Below, piece after piece: positions 1,076 through 19,460 of a stretch of 29,203 nucleotides of DNA. Location: the IMG/VR virus record IMGVR_UViG_3300009161_000169, positions 1 to 29,203 of that record, one strand, 5' to 3'. How positions within the stretch are numbered: position 1 is the stretch's first letter; every line of letters starts with the position of its first letter. The DNA comes from a virus. Under the pieces are notes generated by a model that saw nothing but the letters and a program-made list of their open reading frames with translations, made no database searches and was not told where the DNA came from. The position numbers and the translations under genes were made by a program.

Positions 1076-1205
1076 ATGAAAACTCTTCATAAAAATCTCC
1101 ACGGAATATGGTTTACCCCTTGGCTTGGGGGTAAAGATATTCCATATTTCAAGTGTTGAAGAAGACTCCTCCCACCACCACGAACGAGAGAGAAGCCACC
1201 ATGAC
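1076..1205 (+). repeat. Direct repeat copy 2 (promoter-leader cassette)
   Basis: This is the second copy of the 690-820 unit, including the inverted repeat, promoter, leader and the CCACCATGAC start-codon context. The near identity while the downstream genes differ suggests recent duplication, or exchange of the upstream cassette between unrelated early genes. Confidence 0.85.
1103..1148 (+). promoter_or_regulatory. Promoter with palindromic operator-like arms (cassette 3)
   Basis: GGAATAT (1103-1109) pairs with ATATTCC (1137-1143), with TTTACCCC and GGGGTAAA inside. The -35-like TTGGCT is at 1120-1125 in the loop, and CATATT is at 1143-1148. The architecture is the same as at 715-760. It drives the gene at 1201. 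Confidence 0.55.
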
Positions 1206-1473
1206 CACCTACCTGACTTACAAGCGAGCAGCATGGTATCTCGAAGGTTTCCACATGATCATCACGGCCTTCGATGCAGACGGGGCGCAAGTCGGCGACA
1301 TCTGTGCGCTCTATCAATACAAGACCAATCGCTTGTCGGATCTCACCGTCACCCTCCTTGCTACGGGTGATACGGGTGAAGTTAAAGTATCCCACGGGGA
1401 GGGTCGCAAGGCAGTTCAGGTCGCCAAGACCATGCTTGAGAACATGCTCAAGAAATCGGCATCGGTGGCTTGA
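1201..1473 (+). CDS. Small early protein, unknown function
   Basis: The product has 90 residues beginning MTTYLTYKRA. It is rich in beta-prone segments followed by a C-terminal helix with VAKTMLENMLKK. No family is recognised. The start is supported by the repeated leader, identical to that of the gene at 816. It is the last gene of the early cluster. Downstream (1474-1540) there is no gene, only a weak GC hairpin (ACCCC/GGGGT) around 1509-1528 and a late promoter for the next unit. Confidence 0.7.
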   Translation: MTTYLTYKRAAWYLEGFHMIITAFDADGAQVGDICALYQYKTNRLSDLTVTLLATGDTGEVKVSHGEGRKAVQVAKTMLENMLKKSASVA

Positions 1474-1529
1474 TACCACAACAAAGATTATGTTCAGGTG
1501 TAAGATTACCCCCCGCAGGTGACGGGGTC

Positions 1530-1535
1530 TAAATA
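1530..1535 (+). promoter_or_regulatory. T4-type late promoter TAAATA
   Basis: TAAATA matches the core of the T4 late promoter TATAAATA. Its last base is 6 bases before the A of the ATG at 1541. If spacing follows T4, transcription starts at the start codon itself. There is no Shine-Dalgarno sequence. Confidence 0.6.
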
Positions 1536-1540
1536 GCGGC

Positions 1541-2617
1541 ATGGCAATCCTCCGCTACTACAACCCCGTCGTCCACGACATCTACCACTACCCGACCCTC
1601 GCCACACAGACGAGCGGAGGGATCACGCCCGATGGCTACAGCGCAGAGTGTCAGACCTACGGGCTGATTGATTGGTCGGGCACCCGCTGCCTCGACAGGT
1701 ACTTCTGTCGGATGCTGTCGCCCACGCCGTTCCTCACGATCCCGCACGATCCGACGAGCGTGAACTTTTGGAACCAATGCACCTACGGGGCTGTCCTCAT
1801 CTCGCCCCGTCATGTGTTGGTCTGTCAGCACTTCAGGGGTGCGCACAGCGACCCGAACATCAATACGGCGAACATCAAGTTCTTCGGCAAGGGCGGTGCC
1901 ATGTACGGGAACACCGTGACCCGTGTGTATCTTGATGTCGGTCCCGACCTCACCCTGCTTGAGTTCCTTCAGCCGTTCCCTGATGCGGATGTCAAGATTT
2001 ACAACCGCATAGCCGACCCCCTCTACATCCCCGAAGGTACGAACCTGTGGACGAAGGACTCGAACGGCAAGGTCTACAAGACGCTGTACGACAAGGCGAA
2101 CTACAACGCCACCACGGGCGACACCTCGGGCTACTCGTTCCGACCGAGCCTCGACGGGGTCAACGGTGGTGCCTATCAGAACGGCGTGATCGCCATCTTC
2201 ACGGGAGACTCGGGTTCCCCCGTCATGGTCAGGGATGCGTATGGCGACACCGTGTTCGTCGGTTTGCAATACGGTGGACAAAGCGTGAACCATGCAACCT
2301 TCGACCGACTGAAGTCGATCCTCACACCGTTCAACTACCCCCTTGAGCATGTCAAGTTGTCCGCAAAGAAGGAAGACATCAATCAGGACGGCAAGGTCGA
2401 TTCAGCCGACCTCGCCCAAATCCTGTCGAGGTGGGGCAACACCAAGCCCATGTTCGAGGACATGGATGGTAACGGCAAGGTGGATGGCGTTGACATATCC
2501 ATCCTTATGAATGCATGGGGTGGCTACACGATCCCGACGAACCCCACGGTACTGACCTCGTCCGTGGTGCAGTCCCCGCCACCGACCACGGACGGTAACA
2601 CAAAGCCTCGGGCTTGA
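1541..2617 (+). CDS. Trypsin-like serine protease with C-terminal dockerin repeats
   Basis: The product has 358 residues. It shows the chymotrypsin-fold signature: LISPRHVLVCQH with His97 in the position of trypsin His57, DLTLLEF with Asp136 like Asp102, and GDSGSP with Ser224 like Ser195. After residue 278 come two dockerin type I calcium repeats. The first has Asp279, Asn281, Asp283 and Asp290; the second spans about 307-328. Each is followed by a short helix ending in WG. The tail is Pro/Thr-rich. There is no signal peptide. The TAAATA promoter implies late expression, so a virion or assembly role is likely; the target is unknown. The repeat style resembles C-terminal dockerins of Planctomycetes, which may reflect the host or the gene's origin. 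Confidence 0.8.
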   Translation: MAILRYYNPVVHDIYHYPTLATQTSGGITPDGYSAECQTYGLIDWSGTRCLDRYFCRMLSPTPFLTIPHDPTSVNFWNQCTYGAVLISPRHVLVCQHFRGAHSDPNINTANIKFFGKGGAMYGNTVTRVYLDVGPDLTLLEFLQPFPDADVKIYNRIADPLYIPEGTNLWTKDSNGKVYKTLYDKANYNATTGDTSGYSFRPSLDGVNGGAYQNGVIAIFTGDSGSPVMVRDAYGDTVFVGLQYGGQSVNHATFDRLKSILTPFNYPLEHVKLSAKKEDINQDGKVDSADLAQILSRWGNTKPMFEDMDGNGKVDGVDISILMNAWGGYTIPTNPTVLTSSVVQSPPPTTDGNTKPRA

Positions 2618-2629
2618 GTCAAAAGAAAA

Positions 2630-2675
2630 GATACGATGGCAAACCCCTTGACTGATGGGTTTGCTGTCGTATCCT
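2630..2675 (+). promoter_or_regulatory. Promoter embedded in 17-bp inverted repeat
   Basis: Arms 2630-2646 and 2657-2673 are complementary over 17 positions, with two positions that become G-U pairs in RNA. TTGACT (2648-2653) sits in the loop, and TATCCT (2670-2675) follows with a 16-base spacer. The next start codon is only 6 bases after the -10, so the transcript would be leaderless. The layout repeats the palindrome-promoter design of the early cassettes. Confidence 0.55.
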
Positions 2676-2681
2676 TCGTGA

Positions 2682-2885
2682 ATGCTATCGAAAGTCCTCA
2701 AGACGATCCTGCTGATCTGCTTCCTCGGAAGCGGCATCTACTTCTTGGGGACGGGAGCGATGTGGTCCCTCGGCGGCTTCATCGGATGGATCGCCGTGTC
2801 CGTCATGGCGGCGATCATCGTGGTGGTAGCAATGTCGCCCATTCTCCTCGTGGTGTGGGTCGTCGGCAGGATCTTTAGAATCTGA
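2682..2885 (+). CDS. Small membrane protein
   Basis: The product has 67 residues, nearly all hydrophobic. Predicted membrane segments are about residues 6-26 and 32-62, the second possibly two passes, with a short basic C-terminus (GRIFRI). There is no Shine-Dalgarno; the start is 6 bases downstream of a -10-like TATCCT. Phage-encoded membrane peptides of this size can be holins, superinfection-exclusion or membrane-stress proteins. The sequence does not decide between them, and no endolysin is adjacent. Confidence 0.6.
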   Translation: MLSKVLKTILLICFLGSGIYFLGTGAMWSLGGFIGWIAVSVMAAIIVVVAMSPILLVVWVVGRIFRI

Positions 2886-2898
2886 CTGAATTTTCAGA

Positions 2899-2935
2899 CT
2901 TATCGGCTATAAAAGTGGTTGGTGCCGCCGATAAG
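2899..2935 (+). repeat. Inverted repeat upstream of gene 2973
   Basis: CTTATCGGC (2899-2907) and GCCGATAAG (2927-2935) are perfect 9-base inverted arms around a 19-base centre that begins with TATAAAA. A second small palindrome (TCTGA/TCAGA, 2881-2896) precedes it. This is plausibly an operator or RNA hairpin for the next gene. I could not place a convincing -35 box. Confidence 0.5.
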
Positions 2936-2972
2936 AATACAACGATCAACTACGCTCACAAGGTAGATCGCT

Positions 2973-3242
2973 ATGCCCCGTCCTCGGAAAAACATCGACA
3001 TGAACTTCACCGAGATCACCGAGTCCCTGATGAAGGGAGAGACGGTGAGGCTCAAGGTTCTTGCAGCCCAACACGGAACATGCTCCCCCGTCATCAAGCG
3101 AAGGCTTGATGAACACTACGGCGACAAGATAGCCTTCGTGTACGGAAGGGGAGGAGGAGTGAGGCTATCCGTCATCGCACCCGAGTGGTGGCGGAAGAAG
3201 ATTTCATCATCGGGCAACTACACGGTATCTCCCCCGACCTGA
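2973..3242 (+). CDS. Small basic protein, unknown
   Basis: The product has 89 residues beginning MPRPRKNIDM. It is basic, with a likely helix-turn-helix-like central part (VRLKVLAAQHGTCSPVIKRRL), then a beta segment and WW. The pattern of a short linker helix, turn and recognition-like helix is compatible with a small DNA-binding protein, but it matches no family I can name. The upstream inverted repeat 2899-2935 could be its own operator, which is an inference. Confidence 0.6.
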   Translation: MPRPRKNIDMNFTEITESLMKGETVRLKVLAAQHGTCSPVIKRRLDEHYGDKIAFVYGRGGGVRLSVIAPEWWRKKISSSGNYTVSPPT

Positions 3243-3266
3243 CGGGGATCGCATGAAGTATTGTCA

Positions 3267-3653
3267 ATGCTACGACTCCGTCAGTTCAACTTCCTCGCCG
3301 CCTTCGAGGTGGAACATGGGCAACCTGACTACGCATCCCGACAGACCCTCGTGGAGTTCGTCGAGAAGCGCAAGGGAGAGAAGGGTTCACTCGGATATGT
3401 CATCCGATGGCCTGCATGGTTGACCTACAATCAGACCGCCGACCGTCCCTACAAGTCCCTCCGAAGGGGACAGTTCAGGATGACGGCGGCATGGGACGAG
3501 TACAACGCATGGAAGAGCCAGAGCCAATCTGCGACTCCCCTTGCGGAACACTCCCCCTCGGTCGGCGAGGAAGCAATTAACCACAACCCCGAGGAATCGG
3601 GTATTCATGCAACGGTTCAGCCTGTGGAAGCGACCGATAACAGGAAAGGGTAA
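3267..3653 (+). CDS. Hypothetical protein
   Basis: The product has 128 residues from the ATG at 3267; a TTG at 3261 would add two. The ATG is preferred because GAAG lies at a suitable distance. The N-terminal 90 residues look folded (RQFNFLAAFEVEHG, VIRWPAWLTYN) with several aromatics. The last 40 are polar and acidic, probably disordered. Four bases separate it from the next start, implying co-transcription and coupled translation. No family is recognised. Confidence 0.6.
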   Translation: MLRLRQFNFLAAFEVEHGQPDYASRQTLVEFVEKRKGEKGSLGYVIRWPAWLTYNQTADRPYKSLRRGQFRMTAAWDEYNAWKSQSQSATPLAEHSPSVGEEAINHNPEESGIHATVQPVEATDNRKG

Positions 3654-3656
3654 GTC

Positions 3657-4013
3657 ATGCCAACAATGACGACCAACGGCAGGAATGTCAGGATCAGGAA
3701 CCGCAGCCGCATCGCTGCACAGAACCTCATGGAGGGCGACGAGTTCCTCATGCGGGGCGCACCGAACATTCATGTGATGCGCATCTCCCGCTCGGAGTTG
3801 TGCAGCGTGATGGTGACCTTCGACAACGGCACCAAGCGAAGGTTCGAGTGGGATGACCGTGTGAGCATTACGGAGACTCCCGACCGCCACCGCTACCGCC
3901 GCAACTCGCTCCGCCGCAACGGCTACAAGAACTACCTCGCCGTCCGTGCCAAGACGGAGTCCCCCATCCCGACTCCGAAGCGCAAGCCGAAGAGGAAGCG
4001 TCCCACCCGCTGA
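3657..4013 (+). CDS. Basic protein with lysine/arginine tail
   Basis: The product has 118 residues. The first 70 form a probable small beta-rich domain (MEGDEFLMRG, LCSVMVTFDNGTKRRFEW). The rest is very basic, ending in a Pro/Lys/Arg tail (KRKPKRKRPTR). Such tails commonly bind nucleic acid. An in-frame ATG at 3666 is an alternative start. It is followed by a strong hairpin, so it probably ends the operon beginning at 2973. The function is unknown. Confidence 0.65.
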   Translation: MPTMTTNGRNVRIRNRSRIAAQNLMEGDEFLMRGAPNIHVMRISRSELCSVMVTFDNGTKRRFEWDDRVSITETPDRHRYRRNSLRRNGYKNYLAVRAKTESPIPTPKRKPKRKRPTR

Positions 4014-4032
4014 CCCTACGCCTCCCCAACGC

Positions 4033-4060
4033 AACAGGCTCTCCGCAAGGAGAGCCTGTT
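4033..4060 (+). terminator. Perfect 12-bp hairpin with GCAA tetraloop
   Basis: AACAGGCTCTCC (4033-4044) and GGAGAGCCTGTT (4049-4060) pair perfectly around a GNRA loop. Only two U residues end the stem and no long U-run follows, so it may be a terminator, an RNA-stabilising 3' hairpin, or both. It lies 20 bases after the stop at 4013. Confidence 0.65.
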
Positions 4061-4117
4061 CGCTTGCTACAGACCTCACACGCCGAACTGCCATGTTCCC
4101 AAAATCAACCGCTGTGG

Positions 4118-4145
4118 TTGACAAGCGTAGTTTTGGAAGTATGTT
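4118..4145 (+). promoter_or_regulatory. Sigma70-like promoter for a noncoding transcript
   Basis: A perfect TTGACA (4118-4123), a 16-base spacer and TATGTT (4140-4145) lie in a gap of more than 340 bases that holds no convincing protein gene. The next strong terminator is at 4272-4305. Confidence 0.5.
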
Positions 4146-4151
4146 GTGTTT

Positions 4152-4305
4152 GTCCATTTCGTGCTCCTCGGTGACTATCAGCAACCACACCGAGCCAGCG
4201 GCGTTTGGATGGCAGAGAACTTCGGGACGATCTGATGTGGCTTCGTATCCCGCATCGGTCGAGGTTCTCGGACAACCCCCTTATCACGAGGGGGTTGTTC
4301 TTTTT
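4152..4305 (+). ncRNA. Candidate structured small RNA
   Basis: The stretch between the promoter at 4118-4145 and the terminator at 4272-4305 has no good reading frame but has internal pairing. CTCGGTG pairs with CACCGAG (near 4167-4195). GAGAACTTCG (4215-4224) pairs with CGAGGTTCTC (4260-4269) over 10 positions with one G-U. The expected RNA is about 150 bases. It is not a tRNA, since there is no T-arm signature. It matches no family I know. The call rests only on promoter, structure and terminator. Confidence 0.4.
4272..4305 (+). terminator. Intrinsic terminator
   Basis: ACAACCCCC (4272-4280) pairs perfectly with GGGGGTTGT (4290-4298) and is followed by TCTTTTT. This is a classic rho-independent terminator, ending the candidate small RNA. 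Confidence 0.85.
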
Positions 4306-4307
4306 AC

Positions 4308-4336
4308 TTGACTTCTCGGTTCTATATGTCACCTTA
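4308..4336 (+). promoter_or_regulatory. Weak promoter candidate for gene 4358
   Basis: TTGACT (4308-4313) lies just behind the terminator. The -10 is poor: ACCTTA at a spacing of 17, or CACCTT at 16. A promoter is expected here because the terminator isolates the next gene, but the exact boxes are uncertain. Confidence 0.35.
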
Positions 4337-4357
4337 TTAGTGAAGGGAAAACCGAAC

Positions 4358-5170
4358 ATGACTACACTCTCCAACCAAACCCAAACCTTCCTCCCGACCC
4401 CGCCCGTTCAGGGAGAGAACTCCCACCATCCGATTGAGATCCAAGGTCTGGCCTTCACGGTCGAGGTCATCGGCAAGCAACTCATCGACGGGGTGGTTTC
4501 CGCCCTGACAGGGGACAAGGATCTCAAGATCCTGTGGGTCGGAATGCCGAAGGTCGAGACCGTCTGGCATCGACCCATGTCGAGCGACTACTCGGAAAGC
4601 GCACACCCGACGATCTCGTTCGCCTACCACGCATACCGCAAGAATGTGGGTGTGGTGGGTGCGAAGATCATCCTCGCACAGATGAGCCTCGGCGGAGGAA
4701 CCTCGGCATCCCCCGACCGACAGACGGTGCGCCTCGCCGAGGAGGCTCTGAAGGGGCTTCTCGGTCGCAAGGACAGCCTCACCATGTGGTGGGAGGGGAC
4801 GGTCATGTTGATCCCCACGGTCGATGCCTCCACCGCCGAGGAGATCCGAACCGAGGCGGTCATCAACCTCGTCGCTGATGTCCGCAAGAAACTGACCGAG
4901 GATCGGATGAAGAACCTTGCCAAGGGAACCGAGGTCAAGGTCGTGAAGGGACGCAAGGTTCCCATCGGTACGGTCGGCACGGTGATTTGGATGGGTGTTG
5001 GCAAGTTCGGTCCCCGAGTCGGGATCAAGGACGCTGCGGGTATGACCCATTGGATGCAACGGGTGAATGTCGAGCCGACAGGAACCGTGGACGAAGCCCT
5101 CGTGATCGAAGAGGCGAAGAAGCGGTATGTCGAGCGGTACCAAGTGATCTTCGGCGCTCCCCGAGCGTGA
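4358..5170 (+). CDS. Hypothetical protein with KOW-like C-terminal part
   Basis: The product has 270 residues from the ATG at 4358, preceded by GAAGGG. Residues about 28-190 look like one alpha/beta domain with a repeated helical part. Around residues 190-245 a segment with KGTEVKVVKGRK, PIGTVGTVIWMG and RVGIKDAAG resembles a KOW/SH3-like barrel, a fold that often binds RNA or ribosome-associated proteins. That resemblance is by eye only. It forms a unit with the gene at 5181, which begins ten bases after its stop, and the unit ends in the terminator at 5482. I cannot name the protein. Confidence 0.65.
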   Translation: MTTLSNQTQTFLPTPPVQGENSHHPIEIQGLAFTVEVIGKQLIDGVVSALTGDKDLKILWVGMPKVETVWHRPMSSDYSESAHPTISFAYHAYRKNVGVVGAKIILAQMSLGGGTSASPDRQTVRLAEEALKGLLGRKDSLTMWWEGTVMLIPTVDASTAEEIRTEAVINLVADVRKKLTEDRMKNLAKGTEVKVVKGRKVPIGTVGTVIWMGVGKFGPRVGIKDAAGMTHWMQRVNVEPTGTVDEALVIEEAKKRYVERYQVIFGAPRA

Positions 5171-5180
5171 GGTGAACCCG

Positions 5181-5456
5181 ATGAACGGACTACAACACCT
5201 CCGCAGGGTCAGGGACATCCTCTCCACGGTGGATCCGTGGACGGAATCCGTCCTTTCCGCTAGACTCGCCGACTATGCGGCAACGGAAGCGGATGGCAAC
5301 CTTCGGGCTGTCGCCGATCCGCTCCGCATCGCCCTGTCGGGGATGGGCATCAGGCTTCCCATCGTCGAACTTGTCGTTCTCGTCGGCAAGAGGGAGACCC
5401 TCAACCGAATAGACAAAACCGTGGGACTGACCGACAGGCTGCTTCGGGCGGCGTAG
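5181..5456 (+). CDS. Small helical protein, unknown
   Basis: The product has 91 residues, MNGLQHLRRVRD onward, mainly helical and rich in Arg and Leu. A GTG at 5172 is an alternative start. The ATG at 5181 is preferred since GAGGTG lies six bases before it. It follows the gene at 4358 closely and precedes a terminator, so it is the second gene of a two-gene unit. No family is recognised. Confidence 0.6.
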   Translation: MNGLQHLRRVRDILSTVDPWTESVLSARLADYAATEADGNLRAVADPLRIALSGMGIRLPIVELVVLVGKRETLNRIDKTVGLTDRLLRAA

Positions 5457-7319: not shown

Positions 7320-9674
7320 ATGCTCAACCACTATCAGCGCAAGATCCTCGCAGAAGCCGCCAAGTATGGCGGTGCCAATATCTCCGTCCCCGAACAGATG
7401 GCGGAGGCGGCGAACGGACATCAGTTCCGTGGCGGGGATGCGGTGAAGACGACCATGAACGGCAAGACCGTCTCCGAGGAGGTCGAGGTCACCGAGGCAC
7501 CCGCCCTCATGGGAGGTGAGGCGGCTCCGACCATCTTCGGTTGGGGCAAGCATCAGTTCGAGTCGAAGTTCCGTGAACTCCTCGGCAAGATGGGCTTCGA
7601 GCGTGGGATCGTCCACATGAAGACCGAGGGCAAGGTTATGAAGATCTACTTCGCCAACGCTGCGAAGGCTAGGGACTTCGTGATCGCCTTCAACGGGATC
7701 GCCCGCCGAAGGAGCATGGACTCCGTGGCGAGCGTTGCCACTCAGTTCGACAAGATCAAGGTTCCCACGGGAACAGCCGCCATCGTAACCCTCGACCTCA
7801 CGATGGTCCGTGGTGAGTCGCTCGACCTCGACGGCACCGACCTCTACGAGTGGTTCTCCGAGGAGACCGAAACGATCACCGAGGCTATGGAGATGAGGCA
7901 ACTGTTGAAAGTAATTGCCAATCTCTTCAACAAGCAATTCAAACAGTTTCCCGTCCCCCTGAAGAAGTTGATCGACACATTACGGGAGATTGATGCTCTG
8001 ATTTGGACTAAGCCTTATGGAGGATATCGCTCGGGGGGTGTCGCAGGTTCGGATTTCGATATGGCGGCGTACATGAAGAAGCATGGCATCACCGAGGAGA
8101 CCGAAACGATCACCGAGGGCTTCGTGGATGTGAGCGAGGAAGATCATGGTCTCCACACGGATCTCACCAATCCGAAGGGCAAGGCTGTGGTCGATGGCAA
8201 GGGCAAGGTGATCGCCGTGTACCGCACCGAAAGGGCGGCACGGAAGCATGCCGAGACAGGCAAGCCCGTCAAGGAAGAGGTCGAGGGACTGACGGAAGCC
8301 CCATACAAAACTTCAACAGGAACCCCAAAATTCGTTGGCAAGTACCAATTCACTCCATTCGTGGAGGGGAGCATTTCGGGATGGTTCATCAGGGTGCAGG
8401 GGTTTGCAAAGGAAGTCGGCTTCATTGAAAAGCCCTACAGGAAAAACACCAAGACGAGCGTTGTTCCGCACAGCGTATACTTTCATACGGAGGTTTCTGG
8501 GCATCCTGAACTCAAGGCTCACGCTTGGCCTAGCAATGAAACGAGAGTCATTCAATCAAGTAGAATTAGGTTCGCCGCTGGAAAACTGCTGAAGGCTGTT
8601 GCAATGTGGATGGATGCCTATGGCTACAGGATGGTGGGTGAGGGATTGGAGTCCGTCGATTTCCATGAGGGTCGTGAGTGGAACATCAAGTACGGCACTT
8701 CGATTAAGGATGTCGTGGACGAGATGGGCAGGAGGGGATGGAAGCCCGTGGACAAGATGCCGAGCGGCAACTTCAGCGGCAACATCTCGTTCAAGGATGT
8801 CGAGCAGTCCAAGGCGCAATTGGTAGTCAAAGGCGGTATCCCCGTGAAGTGGGTCTTCGAGTCCGTCGAGGTTGATGGAGACACCATCACAGAAGGCAGC
8901 GACTACTATGCGGTTGAAGGAACTGTGGACAATCAGCCAGGAGGAGCGCAAACGGCTCCAACAATGCAAGAAGCAGAGCATTACGCCAAAGCAATGTTTG
9001 CCTATCTGAAAAAGGGAAACCCAAAAGCCAAGAAAATAACAGTAGAGATTTACAAAGTTGTAAATTATGAGCGTAAAAATACGCCTATGAAAGTTCTCAC
9101 AGTTGCTGAAGGTATCGGCGACGATATCAACGAATCGGTGAAGCCGAAGTTGATCACCCCGAAGGAGATGGCTGACTACAAGGTGAAGAAGGTTCTCGCC
9201 GTGGGAACCAAGCCGAACAACGAGTCCATCGTTGCCACCAGCGAGTGGGGCGAGAAGAAGTTCGTACAACTTGAGAAGATGGGTAAGACATCAAATATCA
9301 ATCAGATCGTGCAAGCCACCTTCTTCGACACGGAGAAGGAAGCGATGGACGAGATGCGGGACAGAGGATTCAAGATCCTGAAGCACCACGGCATCGCCAT
9401 CCCGCACTTGGAATCGGTCGATCAGGATGAGGAGATGGTCAACGAGTACCACCGCCGTGGGAGGGTTCGCTCGTCTTCGCACTCAGGCAGTCCCCGATGG
9501 ATCACGGCGAAGTACGCAGGGGTCGATGCCTACGGCAAGCCGTTCAAGAAGGGCGAGGAAGTCCTGTACTTCCCGATTGGTCCGAATTTCTACACGGGAG
9601 CCGAGGCTGAAAGGGCATGGCGTGAGTTCCTCTCCGCCAAGGGCGACGAAGAGGGAATGCCCTACGCAAGTTGA
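7320..9674 (+). CDS. Modular late protein with repeated prohead-protease-like sites
   Basis: The product has 784 residues, the longest complete gene here. The N-terminus MLNHYQRKILAEA looks like a capsid-targeting leader with a cut after L-A-E (residues 10-12). Similar [ILV]xE sites recur in acidic linkers: VTE/A 57-60, ITE/A 186-189, ITE/G 264-267, LTE/A 324-327, ITE/G 523-526, VAE/G 595-598, INE/S 603-606. T4 gp21 cuts after [LI]xE, so maturation could release about seven small domains. Parts of the gene (about 7905-8040, 8310-8620, 8900-9110) are visibly AT-richer, as if modules were inserted. I recognise no domain. It is transcribed late, alone, between terminators. Confidence 0.75.
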   Translation: MLNHYQRKILAEAAKYGGANISVPEQMAEAANGHQFRGGDAVKTTMNGKTVSEEVEVTEAPALMGGEAAPTIFGWGKHQFESKFRELLGKMGFERGIVHMKTEGKVMKIYFANAAKARDFVIAFNGIARRRSMDSVASVATQFDKIKVPTGTAAIVTLDLTMVRGESLDLDGTDLYEWFSEETETITEAMEMRQLLKVIANLFNKQFKQFPVPLKKLIDTLREIDALIWTKPYGGYRSGGVAGSDFDMAAYMKKHGITEETETITEGFVDVSEEDHGLHTDLTNPKGKAVVDGKGKVIAVYRTERAARKHAETGKPVKEEVEGLTEAPYKTSTGTPKFVGKYQFTPFVEGSISGWFIRVQGFAKEVGFIEKPYRKNTKTSVVPHSVYFHTEVSGHPELKAHAWPSNETRVIQSSRIRFAAGKLLKAVAMWMDAYGYRMVGEGLESVDFHEGREWNIKYGTSIKDVVDEMGRRGWKPVDKMPSGNFSGNISFKDVEQSKAQLVVKGGIPVKWVFESVEVDGDTITEGSDYYAVEGTVDNQPGGAQTAPTMQEAEHYAKAMFAYLKKGNPKAKKITVEIYKVVNYERKNTPMKVLTVAEGIGDDINESVKPKLITPKEMADYKVKKVLAVGTKPNNESIVATSEWGEKKFVQLEKMGKTSNINQIVQATFFDTEKEAMDEMRDRGFKILKHHGIAIPHLESVDQDEEMVNEYHRRGRVRSSSHSGSPRWITAKYAGVDAYGKPFKKGEEVLYFPIGPNFYTGAEAERAWREFLSAKGDEEGMPYAS

Positions 9675-9697
9675 ACGAACCAACTGAATAAGATAGG

Positions 9698-9728
9698 AAA
9701 CCCCCTGCCACACAACGGAGGGGGTTTT
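9698..9728 (+). terminator. Intrinsic terminator
   Basis: AAACCCCCT (9698-9706) pairs with AGGGGGTTT (9719-9727), followed by T and CATTT. It closes the polyprotein unit. Confidence 0.75.
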
Positions 9729-9800
9729 CATTTCCAACCTTTTGGCTTGACCCACAGAACCGACCCGACCGAGGCGATATCCTCCATAAGTAGACGCACC

Positions 9801-9817
9801 CCCCTCAATCGGAGGGG
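9801..9817 (+). promoter_or_regulatory. 5' leader hairpin before outer-membrane protein gene
   Basis: CCCCTC (9801-9806) and GAGGGG (9812-9817) form a short GC-rich stem ten bases before the AGGAG ribosome site (9826-9830). TTGACC lies at 9747 but without a -10 at normal spacing. The gap 9675-9839 holds only the terminator, this hairpin and an unidentified promoter. Confidence 0.4.
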
Positions 9818-9839
9818 ACAACATTAGGAGCAAAGACAG

Positions 9840-10586
9840 ATGATTCGACAGACAATCACAGGACTCGCACTCGCCACCACCATCGCCGCCGCAGCACATG
9901 CAGAGGGAACCGATGTCCCCCAAGCAGAGGCGGCAATCTCGTCACAGACCAAGTGGTCGGTGACGGAGGACTTCACCTACTTCAACTACGAGAGCGACGA
10001 CACCCTGCTCTCGTTCAACACCACCTTCGCCCTCGCCCTCGACAACGGCGGCACCCTCTCGCTGTCGCTCCCCGTCTACAACGGTGACGGCGACACGAAT
10101 GTCGGCGACCTCAAGGTCGGCGGCGACTTCAACGCCTTCAAGGGCGATGGTTGGAACCTCGGACTCGGTGGCGGCGTGTACCTCCCCGTGGGTGACGAGG
10201 AGTTCGACTCGACCAACATCAATCCGTTCTTCACGGGCAAGTTCTCGGCAAAGTTGGGTGACTTCGACTTCATGCAGACCGCCGAGTACCGCTTCGTCGG
10301 CAGCGAGGCGTACACCCCGTGGCTCGGCACTAGCACCGATTCGGACATCCTCGCCCTCGGTACGCTTCTGTCGCACTCGTGGGGCAACCTGACGGTGGGA
10401 GCCGACCTGACCCAACTCTACTACATTCAGTCCGAGGAAAACCAAATCTTCGTCGGACCCGCTGCCGCCCTGAAGATCAACGATTCGATCACTCTCGACG
10501 GTGGGGTTCAGTTCCCGCTCTCGCAGGATGTCTCGACCACCGAGGTTGACATCGTGGTCAGTATCGGACTCAGCATCAAGTTCTGA
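9840..10586 (+). CDS. Predicted outer-membrane beta-barrel protein
   Basis: The product has 248 residues. Residues 1-22 are a signal peptide (basic start, hydrophobic core, AHA-like cleavage site before Glu). The rest alternates hydrophobic and polar residues in many short strands with Gly/Asp turns (LSLSLPVYNGDGD, LGLGGGVYLPVG). It ends VSIGLSIKF, with the terminal Phe typical of substrates of the outer-membrane assembly machine. The product should therefore insert in the host outer membrane after infection. Known phage and prophage barrel proteins replace or mask receptors, or alter permeability; which applies here is unknown. It has its own ribosome site AGGAG and follows a terminator. Confidence 0.8.
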   Translation: MIRQTITGLALATTIAAAAHAEGTDVPQAEAAISSQTKWSVTEDFTYFNYESDDTLLSFNTTFALALDNGGTLSLSLPVYNGDGDTNVGDLKVGGDFNAFKGDGWNLGLGGGVYLPVGDEEFDSTNINPFFTGKFSAKLGDFDFMQTAEYRFVGSEAYTPWLGTSTDSDILALGTLLSHSWGNLTVGADLTQLYYIQSEENQIFVGPAAALKINDSITLDGGVQFPLSQDVSTTEVDIVVSIGLSIKF

Positions 10587-10626
10587 TATGTACTTTCCCG
10601 TACACGACAGAAAGGAGGGAAGAGAG

Positions 10627-10785
10627 ATGAACAGCAAGAGCAACTGCCCCATTATGGGCTGCGGTTTCTGTTGGAAGAACCCCGTCCATGCGGTTCTGTT
10701 CCTCGCCGTGCTTCCGTTCGCCCTGAACGGACTCACCACGGCGTGGAACGCCCTTCACACCACATTCTGCACCATGACCAAGTGA
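10627..10785 (+). CDS. Small cysteine-containing membrane protein
   Basis: The product has 52 residues with a very strong ribosome site (AGGAGG about nine bases ahead). Cysteines at the start form C-x3-C-x2-C (CPIMGCGFC), followed by one membrane segment (about residues 20-42) and a short C-terminal part with another Cys. It lies 40 bases after the outer-membrane barrel gene and before a terminator, so the two are probably co-transcribed and both act at the envelope. The function is unknown. Confidence 0.6.
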   Translation: MNSKSNCPIMGCGFCWKNPVHAVLFLAVLPFALNGLTTAWNALHTTFCTMTK

Positions 10786-10803
10786 CCTTCACCTTGGCAG
10801 CAC

Positions 10804-10840
10804 ACAGGGAGGGAGCCTTGGGTTCCCTCCCTGTCCTTTT
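10804..10840 (+). terminator. Intrinsic terminator
   Basis: ACAGGGAGGGA (10804-10814) pairs with TCCCTCCCTGT (10824-10834), followed by CCTTTT. It ends the barrel operon. Confidence 0.85.
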
Positions 10841-10843
10841 GCC

Positions 10844-10849
10844 TAAATA
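10844..10849 (+). promoter_or_regulatory. T4-type late promoter TAAATA
   Basis: It ends 7 bases before the ATG at 10856, so the predicted transcript starts one base before the start codon. No ribosome site is present. Confidence 0.65.
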
Positions 10850-10855
10850 TCCTTT

Positions 10856-11803
10856 ATGAAGACTTTCGATCAGTTCATTGTCGAGGCGAAGAACAAGGGT
10901 GACGGGGACTGTATGGTCGCCGCCGCCAACCTGCTCATGCTCCTAGCGCAGTTGGGACAGAGCGGCGGAACTCCGATGAAGAAAGCCGATGCCAAGTCGG
11001 GGAAGATCGTGATGGTCCATGCCCTCGTCCATGGTCAGGGTGCCGCAAAGGAACGAAGGTTCTCCCACGCATGGGTCGAGGACGGGGAGACCGTGTACGA
11101 CCACTCGAACGGGAAAAGGATCAGCATGGACAAGGTCATCTACTACGCAATAGGCAACATCAAGCCGAACGAGAAGGGAGCGTACTTCCGCTACACCTTC
11201 GATCAGATGCGTAAGAGGATGCTCTCCACGAAACACTACGGACCTTGGGAGATAGACGAGAATCTTGAGGAGAACATGATCTCCGACCCGAGGAGGATGG
11301 GAAGGAAGAGGATCAAGGTTCCCCTCGACATAGTCTCCGTGCTGAAGGGGCAAGTCAGGGAGGCGTTCTCCTACAGGCATCCACGCACGGGCACGGGGGT
11401 ACGCACGGGCGCACCTGCGCCCACGGGCGAGCATCAATCCGTGGAGTGGAACGACCTCAAGAAGTTGGAGTCGATGCTGGATGCCATGTTCGCACAGGTG
11501 GGTCTCGACATCACCTTCACCAAGCACATGTGGGAGCGCATCAACGGAAGCCGTGGATACGGCGGCATGGTGAGCATCCCCGAGTTGCAGGATGCCTTCC
11601 GCAAGACATTCGTCAAGTACGGACAGAAGATCAGGGATCACCCGACGAATTGGAGGGCGATCATCCTCGACATCAGCAAGCAGCATCTCAACATCCCCTT
11701 CGTTCTTGATTGGAACCCGAGCAGCAGGGAGATGTCTCTCGTCGTCACCACGGCGATGAAGAAGCAGAACTTCATGGCATCCGAACCCAAACTCCCCGTC
11801 TGA
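10856..11803 (+). CDS. Cysteine-peptidase-like protein with capsid-targeting leader
   Basis: The product has 315 residues. MKTFDQFIVEA is almost the T4 internal-protein leader MKTYQEFIAEA, with a predicted cut after I-V-E (residues 8-10). Residues 17-82 show a papain-like arrangement: GDC (Cys19), HAWVE (His71) and VYDHSNG (Asp82). After an Ala/Gly/Thr-rich linker (about 175-195) a second domain, residues about 205-305, begins LDITFTKHMWERING and resembles small toxin-like RNase domains (BECR/RelE-like) found in T4-like phages; that match is by eye. It is late and without a ribosome site. It may be a protease or amidase injected with the DNA. Confidence 0.65.
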   Translation: MKTFDQFIVEAKNKGDGDCMVAAANLLMLLAQLGQSGGTPMKKADAKSGKIVMVHALVHGQGAAKERRFSHAWVEDGETVYDHSNGKRISMDKVIYYAIGNIKPNEKGAYFRYTFDQMRKRMLSTKHYGPWEIDENLEENMISDPRRMGRKRIKVPLDIVSVLKGQVREAFSYRHPRTGTGVRTGAPAPTGEHQSVEWNDLKKLESMLDAMFAQVGLDITFTKHMWERINGSRGYGGMVSIPELQDAFRKTFVKYGQKIRDHPTNWRAIILDISKQHLNIPFVLDWNPSSREMSLVVTTAMKKQNFMASEPKLPV

Positions 11804-11804
11804 C

Positions 11805-11987
11805 ATGGAAGATCGAATCATCAACCGTGGCAAGGATTGGTTCGCCTTCAAGAAGGGAATGGACGATTTCATCGTTAGATATGACATGAAGAAGAGGCAA
11901 GGCAAGCCGAAGACAAAGGCTCTAGCCAACAACACCGTCATGGCACCGCACTCACCACAGAAGAACACCATAAGCACACGGATATGA
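11805..11987 (+). CDS. Small basic protein, unknown
   Basis: The product has 60 residues starting one base after the previous stop. It has a charged N-terminal half (MEDRIINRGKDWFAFKKGMD) and a basic Pro/Asn/Thr-rich tail. The stop overlaps the next start (ATGA at 11984). It is coupled to its neighbours in the late unit from 10844. The function is unknown. Confidence 0.55.
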   Translation: MEDRIINRGKDWFAFKKGMDDFIVRYDMKKRQGKPKTKALANNTVMAPHSPQKNTISTRI

Positions 11988-13318
11988 GAATGAAGAACTA
12001 CTTCGACTTCAGGCAGGAACAGGACATTGTCGAGCAGTCCATGCTCGCCGAGGAGATCGAACGCTACCTTGAGGAGAAACTCCTCGTCCTCGGGAAGGGA
12101 TCGAACTACGGTCAGGCGGTCATCGTCGCTGGAGGAATGGCATCGGGCAAGTCGTTCGCCATCGCCAACTTCATGCAGGGTGAGAAGTTCAAGGTGTTCA
12201 GTGTCGATGCCTTGAAGGACACCCTCATCTCCATCAGGGAGAGGCTCAAGAAGAATCCCGATGCCAAGGTGGAGTCCTCTTCGGTAAAGGACATCATCCG
12301 TGCGATACAGGACCTGAACAGCAGGAAGCCGTCCGACGCAAGGCGGATGCACCTCGCTATGCAGAAACTCGGTTTGTCGGCGGGACCGAATCCTACGAAC
12401 ATCACCGATCCGAAGTTGTGGAAGGACATCGACTTCAAGGATCCCGAGGGAGTGTCCACGATGAAGGATCTCCTCAAGGGTTTCAATGTCGATCAGAAGC
12501 AGCAGATCATGTTCTTCGCCGATCCGAACAGGTCGGAACTGCCGAATGTCATGTTCGACCTGACCCTGAGGGACATGGGTCAGGTCGTGGGCAATGTCGG
12601 CGGTGATGCGGGGATCGGTCAACTGCTCAACTTGGCGGGATACAAGCCGCAGAACATCCATGTCGTGTGGATCCTGACGAACTACAAGATCGCCATGAGG
12701 CAAAACCTCACCCGTGGTCGTGTCGTTGACAGCGACATCCTCTTCTCGTCCCATAAGGGCGCAAGCGGGACGATGCAGGACATCATCTTCAAGCAGTACA
12801 GTAAGTTCGGCATCAACGGCGACATCGCAGTCATCCTCGGTGGCGGCGAGGGTCAGGTGCAGTACGAGGTGGGTTCGTACCGAATGATGGATGGCAGGGA
12901 GTTCACGATCAACCAACCCCTCAAGTATCCCGTGTTCAGAGACTTCAAGTACTTCCGAGTGAAGAAAGCGGGGGAAGGGTCGATAAACCGTGAAGCCCTC
13001 ATGGCAATACGGTCGTACATCGAAACCATGACACCTCCGCCTAACACCACCCCCGACAAGGCGCAGAGCGAGGTCATCAAGAAGATCATGTCGGACTTCG
13101 CCCGTGCGGAGAAGTTCATCTCGGCGAGCCTTGAGAAGGGACTCCCCGTCGAGACGATCAAGCGTGAGTACCGTAATAAGTTCCCCCCATTGGTTCCGAT
13201 CCACAAGGACACGGCGGAGGCACTCGGTCTCTCACTAGATCAGTACATCCCCACCCTCTCACAGGCAGTCGCAAATATTCTAGGACTGAAACTGGATCAG
13301 TACATCTTGCGGAATTGA
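11984..13318 (+). CDS. Zeta-toxin-like P-loop kinase, possibly packaged
   Basis: The product has 444 residues; an alternative start is the ATG at 11990. The N-terminal 25 residues contain I-V-E and L-A-E sites as in packaged T4 proteins. Residues 44-60 hold the Walker A motif GGMASGKS, followed by a strand and a conserved Asp (FSVDAL), as in Zeta-toxin and related kinases. A later segment VVWILTNYKIAMRQNLTRGR has the arginine-rich lid typical of such kinases. The C-terminus has two similar LGLxLDQYI motifs. Zeta toxins phosphorylate UDP-amino sugars, but similar folds phosphorylate nucleotides or proteins, so the substrate is open. There is no antitoxin-like neighbour. Confidence 0.65.
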   Translation: MRMKNYFDFRQEQDIVEQSMLAEEIERYLEEKLLVLGKGSNYGQAVIVAGGMASGKSFAIANFMQGEKFKVFSVDALKDTLISIRERLKKNPDAKVESSSVKDIIRAIQDLNSRKPSDARRMHLAMQKLGLSAGPNPTNITDPKLWKDIDFKDPEGVSTMKDLLKGFNVDQKQQIMFFADPNRSELPNVMFDLTLRDMGQVVGNVGGDAGIGQLLNLAGYKPQNIHVVWILTNYKIAMRQNLTRGRVVDSDILFSSHKGASGTMQDIIFKQYSKFGINGDIAVILGGGEGQVQYEVGSYRMMDGREFTINQPLKYPVFRDFKYFRVKKAGEGSINREALMAIRSYIETMTPPPNTTPDKAQSEVIKKIMSDFARAEKFISASLEKGLPVETIKREYRNKFPPLVPIHKDTAEALGLSLDQYIPTLSQAVANILGLKLDQYILRN

Positions 13319-14344: not shown

Positions 14345-15376
14345 ATGGACGAGTTCAACCACCTCAAGAACGGCATCTACTCCTTCAACTCCATCGGGGA
14401 TTCCGCAGCCAAGTTGAGCGAACTGCTCGGCGATGGTTGGGAGGACGAGGTGGTCCCTCGCCGAATCTCACCCCCAGGAAACTACAACAGCCCGAAGCAT
14501 TGGTGGGCGATCAGCACGATGAAGGCTTTGTCTCAGAAGATGTTCGGAGACAAGAAGGACGATCCGAGGTTCTCGGTGTTCACCACCGAGGAGGTGCAGC
14601 GTGAGGTGCATATGTTCAGCGTCACCCACAAGACGCTGCTCGACCATGAAGCACCCACCTACTTCGTCACGAAGGAACTGATCGAAGCCCTCGACCGAAC
14701 CGATGTCGAGGACACCATCCCGATGGAGGAACTGAATTGGCCTCACGAGGCGATGCTCTTCGTCCTGCCGAGGGACATCAGGTACGCCGAGGCGTGTGGG
14801 GTATTCAACAAGACCTCCTTCGTCACCATGCTGACCGTGACCCGTGCTAACCATGTGAAGTACGGCAAGTCGTACATCGTCACGAGCGTCTACGATGATG
14901 GCACGACTTCCTATGCCCACTACCCGTGCGGTGGCACCTACGGCGATCAGATTCGTGAGCATGGAGACAAGTTCATTATGGAGAATCCCACGGAGTTCTA
15001 CCGTGAGGAATACGAACTCTCAATCGACAGGTCGAGGCTCGACGAGGACAAAAGGCAGATCAACTCCACCGTCCGTCTCGTATGGAAAATCCTTTGCGCC
15101 ATGAACGCACCGAACGAGACGGTCGTTGTCGGCGGCTCCCTCCTCCGTCCCTTCCATGAAGGCAAGGGCAGGAGGAAGCAACAGAAGGAACTGTGGTCCC
15201 CGAGGATGCTTGACCTGTCGGAGAGGACATCCGTTTCGGATGATTCCGATGGGGAGGGCGGTAGGGGTGTCAGGCTTCATTGGCGGCGGGGTCACTTCCG
15301 CCGACAGGCTCACGGCACGGGTCGGATGCAGCGCAAGATGGTCTGGATTAAGCCCCACAAGGTGGGCAGTCTCTAA
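14345..15376 (+). CDS. AcrVA2-like protein (C-terminal RRGH motif)
   Basis: The product has 343 residues; GGAGG lies 5 bases before the ATG. The C-terminal 33 residues read HWRRGHFRRQAHGTG followed by WIKPHKVGS. This closely resembles the end of AcrVA2 and its many plasmid and phage relatives, which have RRGHW, a G-x-G turn, then a W-x-P-x-x-V strand. The middle segment with MLFVLPRDIRYAE may correspond to that family's conserved beta region. AcrVA2 lowers Cas12a by acting on its mRNA, but most relatives have no known target, so anti-CRISPR activity here is only a possibility. It lies directly behind the tRNA. Confidence 0.55.
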   Translation: MDEFNHLKNGIYSFNSIGDSAAKLSELLGDGWEDEVVPRRISPPGNYNSPKHWWAISTMKALSQKMFGDKKDDPRFSVFTTEEVQREVHMFSVTHKTLLDHEAPTYFVTKELIEALDRTDVEDTIPMEELNWPHEAMLFVLPRDIRYAEACGVFNKTSFVTMLTVTRANHVKYGKSYIVTSVYDDGTTSYAHYPCGGTYGDQIREHGDKFIMENPTEFYREEYELSIDRSRLDEDKRQINSTVRLVWKILCAMNAPNETVVVGGSLLRPFHEGKGRRKQQKELWSPRMLDLSERTSVSDDSDGEGGRGVRLHWRRGHFRRQAHGTGRMQRKMVWIKPHKVGSL

Positions 15377-15379
15377 ATA
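15374..15379 (+). promoter_or_regulatory. T4-type late promoter TAAATA
   Basis: It overlaps the stop codon of the preceding gene. Its last base is 6 before the A of the ATG at 15385, so the predicted transcript starts exactly at the start codon. Confidence 0.65.
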
Positions 15380-15384
15380 ACTCC

Positions 15385-15939
15385 ATGAACGGATTCAACG
15401 AACATCTGTTATCGGAGAGCCGCAGGGGTCAGATCTACTGCGACATGGACGGTGTCCTCGTTGACATCGTGGGTGGAATATGCACCGCTGACGGGAAGCC
15501 TCGCTGCGATGCGGCGGACTTCGAGGACTACTTGGAGGCGAACAAGGCAAAGTTCGACAAGGAGCATCCGAGGATCTTCGCCAAACTCCCGTGGATGGAT
15601 GACGGCAAGCAACTGTGGAGGTACATCTCGGGGTTCGGGGCGCACATCCTTTCCGCCCATACGAACTCGTGGCAACCGACGAGCAAGGAAGACAAGATGA
15701 TATGGATCAAGCGGGAGATGCGACCCATGCCCGAGAAGATCCATATCCCCCATCGCAGCAGGAAGAAGGACTACGCCGTGCAGGAGGACGGGACTCCGAA
15801 CATCCTCATCGACGATTTGAAGCAGAACATCGACGAGTGGAAGGCGGCGGGAGGGATCCCCATCCATCATAAGAATGCCGCCACCACGATTGCCACGCTC
15901 AAGAAGTTGGGATTCATGGAAAAGAAGGTGACCACATGA
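15385..15939 (+). CDS. HAD-superfamily phosphatase with capsid-targeting leader
   Basis: The product has 184 residues. After a leader MNGFNEHLLSES with a possible cut after L-S-E (residues 9-11) comes the HAD motif I CDMDGVLVD (nucleophile Asp20, Asp22). Motif II is ILSAH (Ser90), the motif III lysine is in RKKDY (Lys128), and motif IV is ILIDD (Asp143, Asp144). This is complete and consistent with a 5'(3')-deoxyribonucleotidase-like or polynucleotide-phosphatase-like activity; the cap region is short. It is late and leaderless. If packaged, it could act on nucleotides or nucleic-acid ends right after injection. Confidence 0.75.
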   Translation: MNGFNEHLLSESRRGQIYCDMDGVLVDIVGGICTADGKPRCDAADFEDYLEANKAKFDKEHPRIFAKLPWMDDGKQLWRYISGFGAHILSAHTNSWQPTSKEDKMIWIKREMRPMPEKIHIPHRSRKKDYAVQEDGTPNILIDDLKQNIDEWKAAGGIPIHHKNAATTIATLKKLGFMEKKVTT

Positions 15940-16157
15940 ACAACGGAAACTACACCAAGGGACAGGGCTACAAGGACGGGTGGAACGACCGCACCGAGGG
16001 CAAGCCGAGCCGACAGCCATCGGCATGGGGTTCCGCCACAAGCGACAGCAAGGTCTATTGGGAGGAGTACTCCCAAGGCTATGCCGATGCCTGTCAGAAG
16101 GTGATCTCCGATGCCCGCAAGGACCTTGAGGACATGAAGCGGTTCCTCGTGGACTAA
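15936..16157 (+). CDS. Small protein with repeated GY-x-DG pattern
   Basis: The product has 73 residues; its ATGA start overlaps the HAD gene. Two similar motifs occur: GQGYKDGWNDR near the start and EYSQGYADACQ in the middle, with an acidic helix at the end. The motif pair slightly recalls ribosome modulation factor-like proteins, but the match is too weak to name it. It is translated with the phosphatase. The next late promoter overlaps its stop. Confidence 0.55.
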   Translation: MNNGNYTKGQGYKDGWNDRTEGKPSRQPSAWGSATSDSKVYWEEYSQGYADACQKVISDARKDLEDMKRFLVD

Positions 16158-16160
16158 ATA
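16155..16160 (+). promoter_or_regulatory. T4-type late promoter TAAATA
   Basis: It overlaps the stop at 16155-16157 and lies 19 bases before the ATG at 16180. The expected leader is about 14 bases. Confidence 0.55.
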
Positions 16161-16179
16161 CCGCCGTGACGCTCATTAG

Positions 16180-17211
16180 ATGCAGCCCAATTATTCCTTC
16201 ACCGTAAAGAGTCGATACCACAGTCCCCGCAGTGTCATCCTCCTAGACAGGAGGCGTGGCATCTTCAAGGTGTCGGGGAAATCCGACTTCGTTCGTAGTG
16301 GGGAGGGAATGTTCGACTTCGAGGGGGGACCGTTCTACTTCATCGGAGGTTGGTTCTATGACATGGGAGAGATCACTTCCGTGACTCCCGTCAACGGAGA
16401 AGACGGAAACGCCACCGTGTTGGTCACGGTGAGACTGACCAAGAGCGCACGGGCGAAGATCGGGCGCACCATCAAGAAGACGAAGGAGACCGCCGATGTA
16501 TGCGATCAGACTAACCAACGGCAAGGAGGACAGGGGTCTTCTTGTGGTTCGGCACGGTGTTGCGGCGGTGTATGCCAACGAGAAGGCGGCACAGGCGGAT
16601 GCCAAGTGGCTCAACGAGATATCGAAGAGGATCGGGTCGGGGACGGTGTACGCCCCGATTCCGTTCAAGAAGAAGGACGGTTGGCTGACGGAGATGCAGA
16701 AGGTCGAGTCCACGCACAGGTCGAGCGTCTCCACGAGGACATCGCCCGAGGCAAGGAAAAACGCAGGGAAGCCATCGAAGCGAAGTTCCCCACAGTCTTC
16801 GGCGGCGGCGGCGGCACCCGCACCGTCAATCCCGACCGATCTATCGGAACTGTTTGTTGGGAATTTGGCTACGGGTGGGACAACCTGATAGAGATGCTTG
16901 CCGCCGCCCTGAATGCAGAGATCGACAGGGATCCCTCCCTGTTGAACGAAGACACCCCGTTCCGCATCGTGCAGATGAAGGAGAAGTTCGCATCCCTCCG
17001 CATCTATTCCGAGAACGGCAACCATCGAACCGAGGGGGTTATCAGGATGGTCGAGAAGATGTCCTCGGGCGTGTGCGAGGTGTGCGGAGAGGTGGGCTTC
17101 CTGTCAAGGAGTGCCGTGGGCAAGGGAGGATGGCTCAAGACCCTCTGCGGCGAATGCTGCGTCCCCCTTCAGTACCGCAGGGTTGAGGAAGAGGAAGCCG
17201 ACATCCCATAA
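16180..17211 (+). CDS. Composite reading frame: unknown N-terminal part, zinc-ribbon C-terminal part
   Basis: The frame is open for 343 codons but looks like two genes in one frame. Residues 1-105 look like a genuine beta-rich protein (VILLDRRRGIFKVSG, GPFYFIGGWFYDMG). Residues about 106-175 are Gly/Arg/Gln-rich gibberish, because the opposite-phase gene at 16496 is the real coding phase there. From about residue 178 good coding character returns. Either the first gene lost its stop and reads through, or the region contains frameshifts. Late expression comes from 16155. Confidence 0.5.
   Translation: MQPNYSFTVKSRYHSPRSVILLDRRRGIFKVSGKSDFVRSGEGMFDFEGGPFYFIGGWFYDMGEITSVTPVNGEDGNATVLVTVRLTKSARAKIGRTIKKTKETADVCDQTNQRQGGQGSSCGSARCCGGVCQREGGTGGCQVAQRDIEEDRVGDGVRPDSVQEEGRLADGDAEGRVHAQVERLHEDIARGKEKRREAIEAKFPTVFGGGGGTRTVNPDRSIGTVCWEFGYGWDNLIEMLAAALNAEIDRDPSLLNEDTPFRIVQMKEKFASLRIYSENGNHRTEGVIRMVEKMSSGVCEVCGEVGFLSRSAVGKGGWLKTLCGECCVPLQYRRVEEEEADIP
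16496..16888 (+). CDS. Hypothetical protein overlapping in the +1 frame
   Basis: AAGGAG lies 8 bases before ATG 16496. The first 65 residues (MYAIRLTNGKEDRGLLVVRH, then AAVYANEKAAQADAKWLNE) have good coding character. After about base 16700 the frame turns into Ser/Pro/Ala low-complexity sequence to the stop at 16888, while the other frame takes over with a recognisable zinc-ribbon protein. The real product may therefore be a -1 frameshift fusion of this N-terminus with the downstream domain, or a short gene whose tail overlaps the next one. Confidence 0.55.
   Translation: MYAIRLTNGKEDRGLLVVRHGVAAVYANEKAAQADAKWLNEISKRIGSGTVYAPIPFKKKDGWLTEMQKVESTHRSSVSTRTSPEARKNAGKPSKRSSPQSSAAAAAPAPSIPTDLSELFVGNLATGGTT
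16681..17211 (+). CDS. Zinc-ribbon phage protein (alternative start for the 3' part)
   Basis: From about 16700 the frame encodes a charged helix (VERLHEDIARGKEKRREAIE), then FGYGWDNLIEMLAAAL, then QMKEKFASLRIYSEN, then CEVCG and LCGEC. Small phage proteins with GDGW, VKEKFGGLRFY and two CxxC knuckles are common; the Cys pairs should bind one zinc. The role is unknown. A TTG at 16681 with AGAAGGA just before it is a possible independent start; otherwise this part is reached by frameshift from 16496 or by read-through from 16180. Confidence 0.5.
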   Translation: MADGDAEGRVHAQVERLHEDIARGKEKRREAIEAKFPTVFGGGGGTRTVNPDRSIGTVCWEFGYGWDNLIEMLAAALNAEIDRDPSLLNEDTPFRIVQMKEKFASLRIYSENGNHRTEGVIRMVEKMSSGVCEVCGEVGFLSRSAVGKGGWLKTLCGECCVPLQYRRVEEEEADIP

Positions 17212-19458: not shown

Positions 19459-19460
19459 GC

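Follow-up and report, generated by a model that had tools for sequence, protein, structure and literature searches.

The question raised by this locus is whether a 784-residue phage protein is made and kept as one chain, or is a polyprotein that a prohead protease cuts into a set of small proteins. The window, i.e., the whole stretch of DNA that was analysed, is a 29,203-nt IMG/VR fragment (IMGVR_UViG_3300009161_000169). Among its products is a DNA polymerase related to those of T4-like phages; on a contig nearly identical to the window (G001) this polymerase shares 48% identity with that of Synechococcus phage S-RIM8. The 29-kb fragment yielded no head genes, and no late-promoter consensus string was found upstream of position 7320, where the gene starts. 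Searches with the 784-residue protein returned no homologue in Pfam, PHROGs, the PDB or the 50,697 phage records of the isolate collection, and no relatives (0) in the genome_contigs search. AlphaFold models (whole protein, pLDDT 33; N-module, pLDDT 59) were of too poor quality to show domains or to be used, and a PDB fold search gave no match with E below 0.1.

The initial annotation had proposed a self-contained polyprotein in which [ILV]xE followed by A, G or S recurs at residues 12, 59, 188, 266, 326, 525, 597 and 605. All eight sites are indeed present, and two further ones, at residues 441 and 514, had been omitted. The ten sites compare with 3.0 expected in shuffled sequence (P = 0.0004). 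Counting acidic sites only, i.e., [ILV]xE sites with at least four D/E in P12-P1, a definition set only after the window had been inspected, there are 9 vs 1.9 expected in shuffled sequence (P = 0.0003). The parts of the gene are as follows, with an arrow at each predicted cut.

7320-9674, plus strand: putative modular polyprotein gene, an ORF of 784 aa, with homologues in L002, L003, L017, L048, L049, L052 and L058
7320-7355, plus strand: residues 1-12, capsid-targeting-like N-terminus MLNHYQRKILAE↓A, ending in ILAE↓A and resembling the T4 CTS (PMC9026906)
7416-7496, plus strand: residues 33-59, 27-aa insertion ending EEVEVTE↓A, absent from L002, L003 and L017
7497-7883, plus strand: residues 60-188, conserved N-module ending TITE↓A, 66-82% identical in L002, L003 and L017
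7855-7884, plus strand: direct repeat copy 1, encoding linker EETETITE, 29/30 identical to copy 2
7884-8117, plus strand: residues 189-266, cassette with GC 0.49 and the 30-nt direct repeat on both flanks
8089-8118, plus strand: direct repeat copy 2, encoding linker EETETITE
8118-8297, plus strand: residues 267-326, cassette ending EEVEGLTE↓A, with homologues in L096, L101, L116 and L117
8298-8675, plus strand: residues 327-452, GKYRFT-type cassette, also in L003, L017, L058 and L061/L062
8676-8894, plus strand: residues 453-525, cassette ending DGDTITE↓G
8895-9110, plus strand: residues 526-597, cassette ending LTVAE↓G, GC 0.43, GC3 0.38
9111-9134, plus strand: residues 598-605, short acidic stretch separating two sites, VAE↓GIGDDINE↓S
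9135-9446, plus strand: residues 606-709, cassette ending EEMVNE↓Y
9447-9671, plus strand: residues 710-784, C-terminal module, shared with L002 and L003 at 75% identity and missing from L017

The N-terminal ILAE↓A is kept in six homologues (L002, L003, L048, L049, L052 and L058), and residues 1-12, being similar to the T4 CTS, may act in capsid targeting. The insertion at 33-59 matches residues 255-270 of the L058 protein (75% over 16 aa) and looks like a cassette start that has been truncated, the full-length cassette occurring there. The cassette at 267-326 is found at 48-71% identity in L096, L101, L116 and L117, in polyproteins otherwise unlike that of the window, and the GKYRFT cassette sits directly behind a CTS-like peptide in L061/L062. 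For the cassettes at 189-266, 453-525, 526-597 and 606-709 no homologues were found in the viral contigs searched. The segments differ in composition and some are AT-richer, as had been noticed before: across segments GC spans 0.43-0.65 and GC3 0.38-0.85, with the highest values (GC 0.60-0.65, GC3 0.80-0.85) in residues 13-188. The reported near-repeat EETETITE is present in two copies (residues 181-188 and 259-266), and these are encoded by the 30-nt direct repeat. Since the match extends to the DNA with a single mismatch, it suggests a recent copy or conversion beyond mere similarity of the proteins.

Among viral contigs, L002, L003 and L017 were found to encode full homologues (794-1184 aa), and searches with single modules yielded many more members, which brings the family to several dozen contigs at the least, with proteins of 457-1184 residues. 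The window protein and the three full homologues have the N-terminal peptide and the N-module in common and differ further on in their sets of cassettes; the C-terminal module is shared by three of the four (window, L002 and L003). Cassette order is not fixed either, because a GGVK cassette common to both proteins has residues 779-896 of L002 on one side and their counterpart in L003 (160-277) on the other. Across the family, cassettes are present, absent, reordered or duplicated, with the changes falling at acidic [ILV]xE junctions. The comparison of homologues that the initial annotation had called for thus bears out its idea of a cassette system, in which whole site-bounded segments come, go, move and duplicate. 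The opposite outcome, in which segments are conserved but the sites are not, was not observed: in four module families an [ILV]xE lies just upstream of 43 of 48 module starts, vs 19-38% of random positions. The five exceptional starts comprise four with Met at P3 and the window cassette at 327-452, which has LTE↓A slightly further upstream. In 13 family proteins, 47% of homology edges lie at most 10 aa from a site vs 21% for random positions, although these edges are not independent of each other.

Two cases place the exchange at the linkers themselves. One cassette, KEEVEVxE↓QFKAG...QKEE, was found in six contexts, with a nucleotide identity of 0.7-1.0 over most of the unit that drops to approximately 0.2-0.5 within a few codons outside the linkers. 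The contigs L050 and L051, with 95-99% identity over 6.8 kb, differ by one in-frame cassette insertion of 369 nt, which terminates in acidic, site-bearing linker sequence. From these comparisons of sequences it seems almost certain that cassettes are shuffled in this polyprotein family. Together with the direct repeat, the L050/L051 insertion and the identity drop also support the linkers doubling as recombination sites for the exchange, gain and loss of cassettes.

The same modules also occur alone. A CTS-like peptide followed by just the N-module forms a complete protein in L149 (138 aa) and L151-L153 (156 aa), and a CTS-like peptide followed by a KOW-like module does so in L127 (85 aa) and L140 (86 aa), with a further copy in L132 truncated by the contig end. 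The N-module also occurs internally in the L054 protein, and its predicted mature start is alike everywhere: NLTE↓APML in L151, EVTE↓APAL in the window and ELDE↓APMV inside L054. The MERLTY/MHRLTF polyproteins (L050, L051, L054, L056 and L101) are without an obvious N-terminal CTS. Two neighbours mark the locus in the window:

9840-10586, plus strand: beta-barrel-like protein with an apparent signal peptide, conserved, marking the syntenic locus
10856-11803, plus strand: protein with the CTS-like N-terminus MKTFDQFIVE↓A, whose targeting is predicted from that motif

The N-module gene has the beta-barrel-like gene behind it in the window and in L002, L003, L048, L049, L052, L058, L149 and L151-L153, and a homologue of the 10856 gene comes next at these loci, the L149 piece ending earlier. 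Elsewhere the same locus carries polyproteins of 457-1184 aa. Since the same neighbours follow both forms, one locus, judged by this synteny, holds either a putative one-module cargo gene or an array. The beta-barrel-like protein itself is possibly an outer-membrane protein produced by the phage.

No protease domain was found in the 784-residue protein, and the term self-contained should be dropped. The gp21 prohead protease of T4 cleaves after L/I-X-E (PMC9026906). No gp21 was found in the records of the window, L001, L002 and L003, and no gp23 in the window, L002 and L003 contigs, all of these being fragments; gp21 was also not found in the 148-kb G006. A T4 gp21-type protease gene is present in G005, G011, G012, G014 and G015, large relatives that carry these modules. 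The 168-kb G005 encodes the polyprotein together with gp21, gp22 and gp23, and its gp23 has YLRE↓SAPT where gp23 propeptides predict the cut (FLSE↓AAPT in the counterpart of the isolate Melnitz). When all ORFs of a genome were ranked by acidic sites, gp22 headed the list with the polyprotein next in G005 (15 and 10) and G014 (13 and 7), and the two were tied in G012 (12 and 12). The isolates Melnitz, phiM12 and S-RIM8 possess gp21 and a multi-site gp22, which ranks first in Melnitz (10) and joint first in phiM12 (6); Melnitz also has a CTS-like protein with five sites. The isolates, these three included, yielded no homologue of the window gene. Because gp22 is a known multi-cut substrate of gp21, its rank serves as a positive control for the site definition. 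G015 has a stand-alone module and gp21, yet no polyprotein at the top of its ranking, so not every such phage uses an array. Of the rest of the original claim, release by a prohead protease stands as a well-supported prediction to which the targeting-peptide motif, the stand-alone modules, gp21 in relatives and the gp22 control all point.

We consider it probable, on the strength of these sequence patterns, that the product of the gene is a head-cargo polyprotein, made by a T4-like phage and cut by gp21 at its junctions into small internal proteins, and we infer with the same good confidence that gp21 cleavage takes place at the junctions. The first 12 residues would carry the precursor into the prohead core as a CTS. 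During maturation a gp21-type protease would cut after Glu at the [ILV]xE junctions and set free independently folded modules of roughly 60-130 residues. By analogy with the T4 internal proteins (PMC3012670), the modules would remain in the head until they pass, together with the DNA, into the next host. The acidic linkers (KEEVEVxE, ESVEE, EETETITE) would serve twice, as protease sites and as stretches of similarity for recombination. Some V-x-E junctions may be poorly cut, because Val at P3 lies outside L/I-X-E. That effectors are injected from these cassettes is plausible, with the chances about even. Most cassettes have no match in Pfam, PHROGs or the PDB. One array module in L129 belongs to the HicA-toxin family (E = 2e-11), and L054, L058 and L101 share a module matching a PHROG family of 93 residues, which in other phages is a gene of its own; both would fit host-directed small proteins. 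In Limnohabitans phage DC31 the latter cassette makes up a small gene by itself (L156, 3956-4261), and it also matches a hypothetical protein of Sinorhizobium phages, e.g., phiM12 (NC_027204.1, 128348-128617). The L129 array (1107-5402, plus strand; 1431 aa) carries, besides its HicA-family module, an intein-like insertion amid another module, which is uninterrupted in L107.

Cassette exchange alone would also be expected of a protein that is never cut, i.e., an internal or virion protein of modular build that is kept whole, with small domains that recombine through flexible acidic linkers and with [ILV]xE as a by-product of their composition. Low-complexity acidic linkers are commonplace between domains. 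Of 108 acidic stretches, 43 have a terminal Glu but no I, L or V at P3, and at the 100 acidic-linker junctions of the 13 family proteins P3 is often Val (48, with Leu or Ile at 52), while the T4 gp21 motif is described as L/I-X-E. A by-product of composition does not, however, account for the enrichment of small residues at P1' of these 100 sites (Ala 34, Gly 16, Ser 8), for lone modules that follow a targeting peptide with the same motif and begin with the same residues, or for a site count that also singles out gp22, and we regard a protein kept in one piece as unlikely. If cutting does occur, the product need not be cargo: T4 gp22, gp67 and gp68 are diced by gp21 to peptides that then exit the head, core proteins of this kind are known to be cut at multiple sites (PMC9026906), and the window protein resembles them in its numerous gp21-type sites. 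The relatives, however, have a separate gp22 adjoining gp21 and gp23, on which ground a scaffold function was rejected; in G005 it lies at 15179-16273 between those two genes, and the polyprotein, beside neither of them, is far off at 148490-151732. Expendable peptides would moreover not need modules of 60-130 aa that are conserved and exchanged as units and also stand alone, and a core or scaffold-like role is very improbable.

As to the enzyme, the cuts could be made by a different protease, e.g., that of the host or one encoded in the window itself:

1541-2617, plus strand: dockerin type I protein (Pfam, E = 1e-8) with the trypsin-like motif GDSGSP recognised by eye

This gene is conserved in G002, G003, G005, G011 and L017, and by eye its product shows LISPRHVL/DLTLLE/GDSGSP-like motifs, but Pfam detects only the dockerin in it. 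G012 matches the dockerin part only and G014 not at all, yet both encode a polyprotein and gp21, and the trypsin-like neighbour was rejected as general processing enzyme on this distribution. Processing by another protease is the least credible of these alternatives, with hardly any probability left to it, and the head-cargo polyprotein cut by gp21 is the reading that we retain.

Other genes of the window and its relatives also merit mention. A further CTS-like N-terminus was found in the window:

15385-15939, plus strand: deoxyribonucleotidase-like protein with the CTS-like N-terminus MNGFNEHLLSE↓S

A second large protein with a CTS-like start is encoded in L007 (8985-12584, minus strand; G002), G003 (8400-11996), G005 (108639-112241) and G012 (150646-153915); it joins cytidylyltransferase, RimK-type ATP-grasp, Zn_protease/retropepsin-like and small DUF3140/DUF6321-like parts, has several acidic [ILV]xE sites, and is possibly another processed array. 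Repeats of 89 nt at 283-371, 705-793 and 1093-1181 of the window each stand directly before a small ORF; two copies are 99% identical, the third 64%, and they probably represent leader or promoter units in several copies. A group of three DNA-methyltransferase-like genes, closely similar and with a TSPPYWGLRDYG motif, lies within 7.5 kb (19206-20447, 24634-25740 and 25737-26684).

We lean slightly towards the wider reading that each joint is both a protease and a recombination site, through which T4-like phages exchange, gain or lose head-packaged host-takeover proteins. If so, cargo could be changed without a new gene, promoter or targeting signal, by an integron-like loader working at the level of protein, and two separate ideas, internal head proteins and polyprotein processing, would meet in one gene. 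The arrays would also be a source of small phage proteins, of mostly obscure function and probably delivered early, with predicted mature ends. As the family occurs in so many viral contigs, the diversity of T4-like head cargo may far exceed the counts obtained by annotating one protein per gene.

In the literature, of which few subscription journals were covered, we found no description of gp21-processed cargo arrays or of phage polyproteins cut by a prohead protease; several known systems are related in part. The polyvalent proteins (Iyer et al., 2017; PMC5512222), e.g., DarB/DdrB of P1, also combine many domains in one polypeptide of variable architecture, as the window protein does with its several distinct domains. 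They were described as delivered as one polypeptide and likened to polyproteins of RNA viruses, with release proposed through embedded peptidase domains in some (PMC5512222), whereas release here would be by the head protease; no recognised polyvalent domain or embedded peptidase was found in the window protein (Pfam, PHROG) or in nine relatives. In gp53/gp54 of SPN3US and in phiKZ a prohead protease cuts one protein several times after x-x-E (PMC10052503), as is predicted here, but those cuts remove propeptides from head proteins and release no set of cargo modules. The T4 core proteins gp22, gp67 and gp68 likewise carry many gp21-type sites in a single protein, but they are parts of the scaffold that are cut and mostly lost, whereas here the pieces between sites are conserved and exchanged. 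Closest are the T4 internal proteins IPI, IPII, IPIII and Alt, which have an N-terminal targeting peptide ending in a gp21-type site and a small, fast-changing cargo (PMC9026906; PMC3012670); the window protein has such an N-terminal peptide ending in [LI]xE, by its sequence, and its modules are comparable in size to mature T4 IPI of 76 residues (PMC3012670), which supports reading them as cargo. In T4, however, there is one cargo per gene and a short propeptide is removed, Alt being cut at its C-terminus as well, whereas the family described here combines up to approximately ten modules per gene, with a site at every junction.
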